A stretch of 8,508 nucleotides of DNA from an uncultured Bacilli bacterium (GTDB lineage: Bacteria > Bacillota_I > Bacilli_A > RF39 > UBA660): positions 1 to 8,508 of the forward strand of contig CAQBKK010000047.1 in the NCBI GenBank assembly GCA_948760655.1, written 5' to 3'. The notes beneath the pieces are model-generated. The model was not told the DNA's origin. It saw only the letters and a program-made list of their open reading frames with translations, and did no database searches. Each line of letters starts with the position of its first letter. Position 1 is the stretch's first letter. The position numbers were made by a program, and so were the translations under genes. Below are positions 131 to 4,736 of this stretch, piece after piece.

Positions 131-1822
131 ATGTTAACCAAAGAACAAGAAAAAATATACCAAAAGTATAAGTTTATTGGAATGACTGAAGAAAAATTTT
201 TAGAATTTGTAGAAGAAGCAGAGAAAGAAAAAGAAAAGAATGATTTAACAAAGTTATTAAACAAGTATCTAAGAGAAAATATAACATTGGAGCATATCCT
301 AAAATATTTAGATAATGCGAAAATCCATTTAGAAGAAAGTTGCCAAAAAATCAATTACAAACTCAGAAGCTTTTATAATATGTTAGATACAGCACAATAC
401 GTATTAGCGCCAAGTGAAATAAACAAACTTTTAGAAACTAAAGTGTTTAATACCTTGTGTAGTAAATTTATAAGCAGAAGAAAAGAAATATCACAAAAAG
501 AAATAGAAACATTTATAAACAACAATACCAATTTAGAATCCATTATAACAGAATATTTAGAACAACAAAAAATAAAAATAATAGAAGAAAATAAAGAAGA
601 CGAATATGAAGAAGAAAATGATGACAAAGACCTAGATCTTGTAAGAGTATATTTGAACGATATTAAGGGAATACCTTTACTGAACAATGAAGAAGTAATA
701 GAACTAGCCAAAAGAAAAGATGCAGGATTTGATGAAGCAAAAAAAAGACTAGTGAATGCCAATCTTCGTTTAGTAGTAAATATAGCAAAACGTTACACAG
801 GAAGAGGAGTACTATTTCTAGATTTAATTCAAGATGGAAGCCTAGGATTAATAAAAGCCGTAGAAAAATTCGATTACAAAAAAGGATACAAATTTTCAAC
901 CTATGCCACATGGTGGATTCGCCATGCAATTTCTCAAGGGATTGCAGATACGGGAAGAACCATTCGTTTTCCTGTACACGCAATAAGTAAATTAACAAAA
1001 ATAAATAAAACGATAGAGTTCTACTTAGTAAAAAAAGGAAAAGAACCAACCATAGAAGAATTGGTAGTTGAAACAGGATTAACTAAAAAAACAATAAAAC
1101 GACTCCTTACAGCCCCTCAAGACATATCTCCTTTAGAGGAATTAATAAGTGAAGATGGGCTAATGTTAGAAGAAGTTATAGCAGACAAAGAGAGTTATTT
1201 TGAAGAAGAATTAACAGATAAAATAAATACCAAGGCATTATTAGAGGCGGCAAAACCAGTAATAACAGATAGAGAATACGACGTTTTAATGTCACGGTTT
1301 GGTATTAATAGAAAAAAATTAACTTTAGAAGAAACTAAATTAAGACACAATGTCAGTAGACAAAGAATTGGTCAAATAGAAGAAAAAGCTTTAAAGAAAA
1401 TTAGAGAAGACAAACGAACAAAAATATATAATCCATATGATACCTCAAAAGAAAGTGCGTCCACTCCAAATGTGAAGATTATAGCATTACTAAAAGAAAA
1501 ATACAGATATATATTGGAAGAACAAGAATTAGAAAGTATATTAACAATTTCTTTGCAAGAAGAAAAAAAAGACATACTTCTTTTGGATGCAATTGAAAAT
1601 AAAATTCTTTTAAAATTAATGAATACTTATAAAGAAGAACAAAAAAAAGAAAAGCAAAAGATATTTGAAAAAATAAAATACATTCTTAAAGAGAAATTAA
1701 AAAGACAACACCCCGAAATAGAAGAAGATAAAATTAGTCAAACGATAGAAAGTATTTTTGAGGCTCATGAAGAAGAAATAGATTTAAACATAATATTAGG
1801 AAGATATTTAAAAAACAAATAA
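131..1822 (+). CDS. RpoD-like alternative sigma factor with N- and C-terminal extensions
   Basis: This 563-aa sigma-70 family factor would direct RNA polymerase to a set of promoters. A region-1.1-like segment (about 105-153) is followed by region 1.2 (about 167-200), region 2 (about 208-283, with LIQDGSLGL and FSTYATWW), region 3 with a finger loop (about 283-350) and region 4 (about 375-427). About 100 aa precede the 1.1-like part and about 135 aa follow region 4; most SigA proteins are about 370-400 aa. Promoter-reading residues differ from E. coli sigma-70: Q437 is His265, T440 is Ser268, R441 is Gln269, E585 is Gln411 and R588 is Gly414. I infer an alternative sigma rather than the primary one. 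The start at 131 is chosen from the promoter at 71-99, the RBS and alignment with the paralogue (MLTKEQEK versus MLTEEQEK); GTG at 128 is possible. It is first in an operon with the larger paralogue, 31 nt upstream of it. Confidence 0.9.
   Translation: MLTKEQEKIYQKYKFIGMTEEKFLEFVEEAEKEKEKNDLTKLLNKYLRENITLEHILKYLDNAKIHLEESCQKINYKLRSFYNMLDTAQYVLAPSEINKLLETKVFNTLCSKFISRRKEISQKEIETFINNNTNLESIITEYLEQQKIKIIEENKEDEYEEENDDKDLDLVRVYLNDIKGIPLLNNEEVIELAKRKDAGFDEAKKRLVNANLRLVVNIAKRYTGRGVLFLDLIQDGSLGLIKAVEKFDYKKGYKFSTYATWWIRHAISQGIADTGRTIRFPVHAISKLTKINKTIEFYLVKKGKEPTIEELVVETGLTKKTIKRLLTAPQDISPLEELISEDGLMLEEVIADKESYFEEELTDKINTKALLEAAKPVITDREYDVLMSRFGINRKKLTLEETKLRHNVSRQRIGQIEEKALKKIREDKRTKIYNPYDTSKESASTPNVKIIALLKEKYRYILEEQELESILTISLQEEKKDILLLDAIENKILLKLMNTYKEEQKKEKQKIFEKIKYILKEKLKRQHPEIEEDKISQTIESIFEAHEEEIDLNIILGRYLKNK
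1667..1810 (+). repeat. C-terminal module repeat, copy 1
   Basis: Codons 513-560 of the first sigma gene encode a charged helical module that recurs at the end of the second gene (4569-4712). By eye 40 of 48 residues match. The first 24 codons encode identical protein with only three synonymous base changes in 72 nt. The module belongs to no sigma region I know. Confidence 0.85.

Positions 1823-4736: not shown

Follow-up and report, generated by a model that had tools for sequence, protein, structure and literature searches.

Few bacterial regulators are as conserved as sigma factors of the primary type, two enlarged and diverged paralogues of which are encoded side by side at this locus. The window, i.e., the whole 8,508-nt stretch of DNA analyzed here, indeed contains the two RpoD-like factors of 563 and 960 aa described by the first-pass annotation: their open reading frames, hereafter W1 (131-1822) and W2 (1854-4736), lie back to back on the forward strand, with Pfam sigma domains in each. 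The perfect housekeeping promoter that had been proposed was recovered as a SigA-type TTGACA-17-TATAAT site at 71-99 (+), matching the consensus at 12/12 positions with a 17-nt spacer. It was the sole 12/12 match among the 35 sites listed by a promoter scan of the window, a total that does not exceed the mean of 41.6 obtained after shuffling. As only 31 bp separate W1 from W2 on the same strand, co-transcription of the pair is suggested. Between W2 and ruvA, a possible weak terminator (AAAAGCC..GGCTTTTT, 4828-4861, +) was spotted by eye, with a 19-nt loop that a terminator scan limited to loops of 8 did not detect. Pfam then identified a conserved flank consisting of ruvA (4898-5461, +, also recognized by synteny), ruvB (5475-6479, +, 82-93% identical in 21/22 genomes of the genus considered below) and queA (6972-7997, +).

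In the ruvB-queA interval of the window (6481-6960), a broken reading frame was observed, the start of which resembles a small P-loop kinase (INGTRTCGKDTFVEF; by eye), and a 48-aa piece of it had no Pfam match. This interval may be a cargo spot, because relatives have small ORFs at the same place, with weak AAA/kinase matches in two of the four scanned (L002 and L053). Beyond queA, a 110-aa ORF at 8008-8340 (-) had no Pfam, NCBIfam or PHROG match; a 161-aa ORF occupies the same position in L001 (16001-16486) and is similar by eye.

Judging from their sequences, both proteins are members of the sigma-70 family. Pfam detected Sigma70_r1_2, r2, r3 and r4 in each, r2 at 4e-22 (W1) and 4e-20 (W2), with r3 of W1 marginally under the Pfam cut-off (24.9 vs. 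25.3 bits). Under the superfamily criterion, r2/r4 scores were 78.1/35.5 bits for W1 and 72/45.6 bits for W2, above the cut-offs of 24 and 24.1 bits. Regions 1.2-4.2, delimited by Pfam and by alignment with SigA, span aa 168-432 in W1 (632-1426, +) and aa 164-431 in W2 (2343-3146, +). Outside the part alignable with the best solved SigA chains, W1 and W2 have about 165 N-terminal residues and about 130 (W1) or 530 (W2) C-terminal ones, in agreement with the added N-terminal module and long C-terminal extension noted earlier. The N-terminal module (N-module) is predicted to be helical and occupies aa 1-153 in both W1 (131-589, +; AlphaFold2 pLDDT mostly 82-91, one block at 71; family alignment A5) and W2 (1854-2312, +; pLDDT 81-91), within whole models of low pTM (0.29 and 0.31). 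The C-tail module, the start of which is approximate, was defined from an alignment of 13 tails and covers aa 446-563 of W1 (1466-1819, +) and aa 839-960 of W2 (4368-4733, +). Structural comparison, which matched sigma factors in a viral library, gave matches covering mainly residues 164-439 and barely the N-module.

Region 1.1 was not detected in W1 or W2 by Pfam (no r1_1 match). Its presence inside the N-module, suggested by eye, found no support in a profile of genus SigA region 1.1, which gave 0.15 as its best family match, 8.0 for W2 and 10 for W1; a remote similarity may nevertheless exist. A count of the N-module in 2/193 family genomes was discarded as an undercount, since the same alignment used as a profile matched 15/1010 ORFs in 80 fetched loci, including one G002 ORF present in the profile itself and one partial match.

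Identity between W1 and W2 is 48% overall and is unevenly distributed: 81/164 residues in the N-module, 63/86 in regions 1.2-2.2, 19/30 in regions 2.3-2.4, only 47/148 in regions 3-4, and 41/51 over the final 51 aa of W1, the tails sharing 84% nucleotide identity across 165 nt. Such diverged paralogues are unlikely to be an assembly duplicate. The earlier reading, in which core-binding and promoter-melting motifs are kept while DNA-reading residues have changed in each protein, holds. Indeed, KFSTYATWWI is present in both W1 and W2; in region 2.4, RQAITR is replaced by RHAISQ (W1) and HHFIDK (W2), and in region 4.2, RERIRQIE is replaced by RQRIGQIE (W1) and GENVRLIQ (W2). Altered specificity is not a rule of the family, since exact RERIRQIE occurs in 18/44 family proteins (e.g., G001r, G203r, P0006 and P0008).

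Between its core and its tail, W2 carries an array of four repeats of about 50-75 aa, while the repeat profile found none in W1. These RHG repeats, named after the consensus LPEKQ.E..YLRHG..L of strong members, lie on the forward strand at aa 546-609 (3489-3680; profile 1.4e-10, earlier profile 5e-4), aa 623-674 (3720-3875; 3.7e-13), aa 690-764 (3921-4145; 2.1e-14) and aa 766-836 (4149-4361; 5.5e-15), and their number reaches 9 in core-bearing relatives of the genus. An initial version of the repeat profile included contaminating region-4 sequences and matched SigA at about 1e-7; it was rebuilt without them. The RHG profile was grown from the arrays of other giant sigma factors, canonical region-4 sequences being excluded (61 units in the last round), and W2 units may themselves be in the profile that scores the W2 repeats. 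Against 880 shuffled proteins, it gave no match under 0.01 (best 0.42). We regard the repeat as a probable, degenerate relative of sigma region 4, since the profile touches region 4.1 of genus SigAs (i-E 0.001-0.0036 in 19/20, first helices only, the 20th SigA being cut before region 4) and alignment A9, built without canonical region 4, also picks short frames beside sigma-2 matches, e.g., G092:C23:36945-37127, which adjoins a sigma-2 match at 36456-36659, both in a 284-aa frame. DNA binding by the W2 repeats is nonetheless doubtful, because the hhalign match with region 4 (E 2.8e-5, probability 74) covers only about 26 columns, and because one long helix stands at the expected helix-turn-helix position in the models of repeats 3 and 4, which are of middling confidence (AlphaFold2 pLDDT about 39-86, and about 28-58 for repeats 1 and 2). 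In two other genomes of the genus, sigma proteins of 1212 and 1213 aa (L064:9785-13423 and L065:4902-8543) had no RHG repeats under 0.01; the L064 protein has a second region-4-like match at 716-755 and an otherwise unexplained long C-terminus.

All relatives with genomic context are metagenome assemblies (MAGs). By RuvB, 85-92% identical to 11 full-length genus copies, and by QueA (69-77%), the window appears to belong in or near the 22-genome genus of L001. A canonical SigA-type match was found in 20/22 of these genomes (not in G196 and G213), and dnaG adjoins rpoD in 19 of the 20 genus rpoD loci fetched, the rpoD of the 20th being almost at the locus start, so that the dnaG side is out of view. 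In relatives, rpoD thus stands by dnaG and the homologous giant locus after tadC; the downstream neighbor of the W1-W2 pair is ruvA, and the contig begins 130 nt before W1. The expectation of an extra sigma factor beside a canonical rpoD was therefore borne out in relatives, as an RpoD-like core additional to the primary sigma is present in one and the same genome in G001, G002 and others. W1 is extremely improbable as the primary sigma factor of the window organism, given this distribution and its mere 42% identity to its best-scoring genus SigA, compared with 87-96% between genus SigAs and that of G001. Curated RpoD models were not reached (NF006666, 258 bits for W1 and 257 for W2 of 572; TIGR02393, 234 and 220 of 354), and none of the 25 best NCBIfam models per protein attained its cut-off. 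Taken together, W1 and W2 are probably not primary sigma factors.

The locus itself is recurrent in the genus. Enlarged sigma factors were found beside tad pilus genes and/or ruvA in 14/22 genomes, with sizes of 409-1406 aa, some of them shortened by contig ends; in L001 and L002, a genome contig scan placed one such gene each between tad genes and ruvA-ruvB. The order tadC-giant-ruvA was read on a single contig in 9/22 genomes (G001, G002, G138, G198, G200, G202, G203, G204 and G209), and one flank only was visible in 5/22, i.e., G199, G205, G206 and G213, where contigs end, and G207, where the giant is followed by two other ORFs, ruvA being located on a separate contig. At this place, G212 has a core-less five-fold region-4 protein and G201 a short sigma of 222 aa. 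In G195, G197 and G208, tadC directly precedes ruvA and the enlarged sigma is absent, as it is at the locus in G210 and G211, and in G196 no ruvB match was found. The enlarged sigma may thus be dispensable, since these five genomes are without it at the locus and no enlarged sigma figures among the 6 (of 8) sigma matches that were listed for G197; giants are encoded elsewhere in the genomes of G195 and G208. Tandem enlarged sigmas recur in G198, G199 and G209 besides the window, the smaller partner in G198 and both partners in G209 having weak cores (28-32% to their own SigA), and the synteny of the locus is conserved. Uniqueness to one assembly holds for the 960-aa protein W2 itself, known from the window contig only; it does not hold for W1, a 93% identical relative of which is on 2 contigs, nor for the locus arrangement.

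Upstream sequences were conserved as well. Among 15 family genes scanned, 12 have a SigA-type site of at least 9/12 starting 47-64 nt upstream (none in G204r, G200r and G198r2) and nine reach at least 10/12, against a mean of 1.5/15 genes and a maximum of 6 in 500 random resamplings. In the fetched loci, 199/763 comparison ORF starts, from which family genes were not removed, reached at least 9/12. Other arrangements were observed nearby. Beside the giant of G207, L060:198-3066 encodes two similar proteins of 433 and 490 aa with a short tandem repeat (AEYIYYFARDIKGANIEKLENAIIQ), for which Pfam gave no match (433 aa) or only below-cut-off matches (490 aa). G036, a genome of the family that is not one of the 22 of the genus, has a compact RpoD-like sigma of 402 aa immediately before ruvA (L087:2588-5119), and a 423-aa protein with four helicase-associated (HA) domains is found on its other side.

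Giant sigma factors are not restricted to this genus. At E <= 1e-3, alignment A9 matched 63/337 genomes of the order, 47 of them in frames of at least 330 aa and 16 only in shorter frames (mostly 227-284 aa) that possibly represent ordinary sigma factors; in the family, 34/291 genomes were matched. At 1e-4, the counts were about 37/337 in the order, 4/296 in the class, all four being in the order list, and 2/295 in the phylum, namely G001 and one 79-aa frame. Frames of at least 450 aa bearing Sigma70_r2 were present in at least 21 of 60 sampled order genomes, two of them sharing a contig in G047, G181, G313 and G314. Among twenty order loci (L125-L144) chosen for repeat matches, clusters were found in L127 (1026, 696 and 1152 aa), L128 (783 and 930), L134 (1060 and 515), L138 (627 and 1556) and L144 (1589 and 628), the full core not being present in all members, and core-less array proteins in L125 (1864 and 1568 aa) and L126 (1548 aa). 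The N-module and tail profiles of the genus had no match in these twenty loci, including none of the 15 N-module matches mentioned above. Pfam annotation of the neighbors of giants outside the tadC-ruvA locus revealed no conserved partner gene; they comprised uvrA, tex, a GH3 hydrolase, a SpoU methylase, Mob_Pre, a ResIII helicase, UvrD-/PDDEXK-type (AddAB-like) proteins, a dihydrouridine synthase, polA, a tRNA synthetase, two PBPs and a cation ATPase. Giants were noticed near DNA-repair genes (ruvAB, uvrA, AddAB-like, polA), and the canonical dnaG-rpoD pair of G333 is preceded, two ORFs earlier, by a giant sigma of 1687 aa (L137:1422-11003).

A phage origin was considered and rejected: tblastn of W2 against 50,697 phage records matched 167, in none of which a single place covered 80% of the query, and the 12 listed of these 167 cover the sigma core only (26%). 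Two scans of viral contigs gave no relative of the giants, and PHROG 351 matches their core and little around it.

The way in which these proteins vary was informative. The giant of G001 shares with its own rpoD 92% nucleotide identity across 830 nt, and 526 nt of unbroken identity over regions 2.3-4.2, the flanking parts being diverged. G198r2 similarly matches its own SigA at 40/40 and then 17/20 residues around regions 2.3-3.0, and poorly on either side. P0012 and P0014 agree at 38-40/40 residues per block except in a linker (positions 481-560, 44/77); P0014 is without its end, which may be an assembly edge because its contig has only 2390 bases, and the L002 giant, well within an 88.7-kb contig, has the P0014-type linker and no array. 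Between P0008 and P0241, the blocks of which are roughly 30-98% identical, a 154-column gap removes two of four repeats. P0003 is identical to W1 over aa 293-532 (240/240), is less similar before, and ends with the W2 tail. In a tree of the cores, tips were 0-0.026 for SigA and 0.3-3.0 for 19/35 giants (short where a close relative is present), and W1, P0003 and W2 were grouped at 95/95, with a long-branch warning. From these comparisons, the giant sigma family looks mosaic and fast-evolving. As the genus relatives are MAGs, single mosaic junctions could be assembly artefacts; a general artefact is unlikely, because there are several cases of different kinds.

Arrays of true region-4 domains also exist. 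At the ruvA locus of G212 (L077), a 541-aa protein without region 2 has five region-4 domains and the family tail, the five units being detected by a genus region-4 profile and four stretches by Pfam. Variable columns among these units were more frequent in the recognition helix (10/14) than elsewhere (17/50; Fisher p 0.016, for one protein chosen after inspection). One or two extra region-4 domains were found in P0006, P0007, P0008, P0011, P0241, G001r and G207r.

We favor, with moderate confidence, the explanation that W1 and W2 are secondary sigma-70 factors derived from rpoD, which would compete with SigA for core RNA polymerase, read promoters in an altered way and make additional contacts through their tails; a cascaded or combinatorial use of the pair, as proposed in the first-pass annotation, is conjectural. 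The SigA holoenzyme would transcribe both genes together; W1 and W2 would bind the core through regions 2.1/2.2, use region 2.3 to melt the -10 element, and recognize altered promoter sequences by means of regions 2.4, 3.0 and 4.2. The N-module, at the usual place of region 1.1, may gate binding. Extra contacts with upstream DNA or with the flap of the polymerase may come from the repeat tail of W2; this is the weakest step of the proposed mechanism, the function of the tail being a guess. The locus itself seems to make variant sigmas, by recombination with rpoD and between tandem copies, and by gain and loss of repeats.

Other explanations account for part of the same data. AsiA-like phage proteins take over the polymerase of the host by way of sigma region 4 or the flap, and arrays of sigma-like modules might soak up such proteins while a giant sigma sustains transcription, mosaic change then reflecting an arms race. 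We hold this to be unlikely. It would fit the rapid divergence of giants beside a static SigA in the core tree, the repeat indels and swapped segment among close relatives, and the existence of core-less arrays; MzaA, a defense-associated sigma, is the sole PADLOC match of W1 and W2, a protein of 881 aa beside the tandem giant pair of L134 (9350-11995) matches TPR and, weakly and at its N-terminus, AbiEi (5.6e-8 over 66 residues), and a neighbor of the L064 giant has a ResIII/DEAD helicase match. However, the MzaA match is restricted to the core, 8/10 neighbor proteins scanned had no PADLOC match, the Pfam-identified neighbors of giants outside the locus are largely housekeeping genes, and the phage target is not known. 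That giants bind core polymerase, initiate poorly and so inhibit SigA seems to us quite improbable: the KFSTYATWWI motif and flanking region 2 are conserved in W1 and W2 while promoter-reading residues are degenerate, especially in W2, G198r1 and G209r1, but the SigA-type RERIRQIE is retained in region 4.2 by the 18/44 family proteins cited above, and one giant has the regions 2.3-4.2 of SigA itself, apparently by gene conversion.

Decay of rpoD duplicates carried along by recombination, with no selected function, is in our opinion very doubtful. In its favor are the truncated or split members (the array-less L002 giant; L048, with a separate 328-aa array-and-tail ORF), the long branches of the core tree, the absence at the locus in some genomes, and the plasmid recombination enzyme adjoining one giant (L061). 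Against it, reading frames of 1000-1700 aa remain uninterrupted even where divergence is very strong, many members in the genus retain the promoter, the locus, the N-module and the tail, and the family is spread across the order. The secondary sigma factor explanation can be extended, tentatively and with rather low confidence, to the order as a whole, which would have turned rpoD into modular, recombining giant sigmas: region-4-derived arrays would diversify reading helices into a strain-specific promoter or target code, with core-less arrays as partners, and the window pair would represent one simple and one four-repeat member. If true, paralogues of more than 1000 aa with repeat arrays, recombination with rpoD and variation among close relatives would constitute a novel way of diversifying transcription, or else a novel conflict system directed at RNA polymerase.

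No giant or array-bearing sigma-70 factor, and no long repeat-array tail like that of W2, was found in the literature searched (titles and abstract openings, with few subscription papers and no preprints). Sporulation and peptidoglycan loss in RF39, RFN20 and ML615J-28 are the subject of PMC10868615, the available passages of which do not mention such factors. Comparison with known systems locates W1 and W2 as follows. With RpoD, SigA and RpoS (groups 1 and 2), they share regions 1.2-4.2, which align with SigA chains and, over most of the span, with RpoD and RpoS chains. They differ from these by the lack of a detectable region 1.1, by the N-module, the C-tail, the repeat array (W2) and the changed regions 2.4 and 4.2, and their scores with RpoD and RpoS models are far below cut-offs. 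The sporulation sigmas SigF and SigG belong to the same superfamily, but their models give W1 and W2 only 94-98 bits for cut-offs of 321 and 372; genus genomes also list sigma genes of about 227-273 aa, SigF/SigG-like by their size. MzaA, the sigma-like protein of the MZA anti-phage system, likewise combines a sigma-70 core with a long N-terminal extension, but only the core matches (NF041931, profile positions about 430-716 of 726; 245 bits for W1 and 192 for W2, cut-off 800), and no mza partner gene was found on the visible side of the pair in the window. ECF41 and ECF56, ECF sigmas with fused C-terminal domains, resemble W1 and W2 in that an additional C-terminal domain follows the sigma core. 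ECF sigma factors have only regions 2 and 4, whereas W1 and W2 also have regions 1.2 and 3, and the extension of W2 contains a repeat array.
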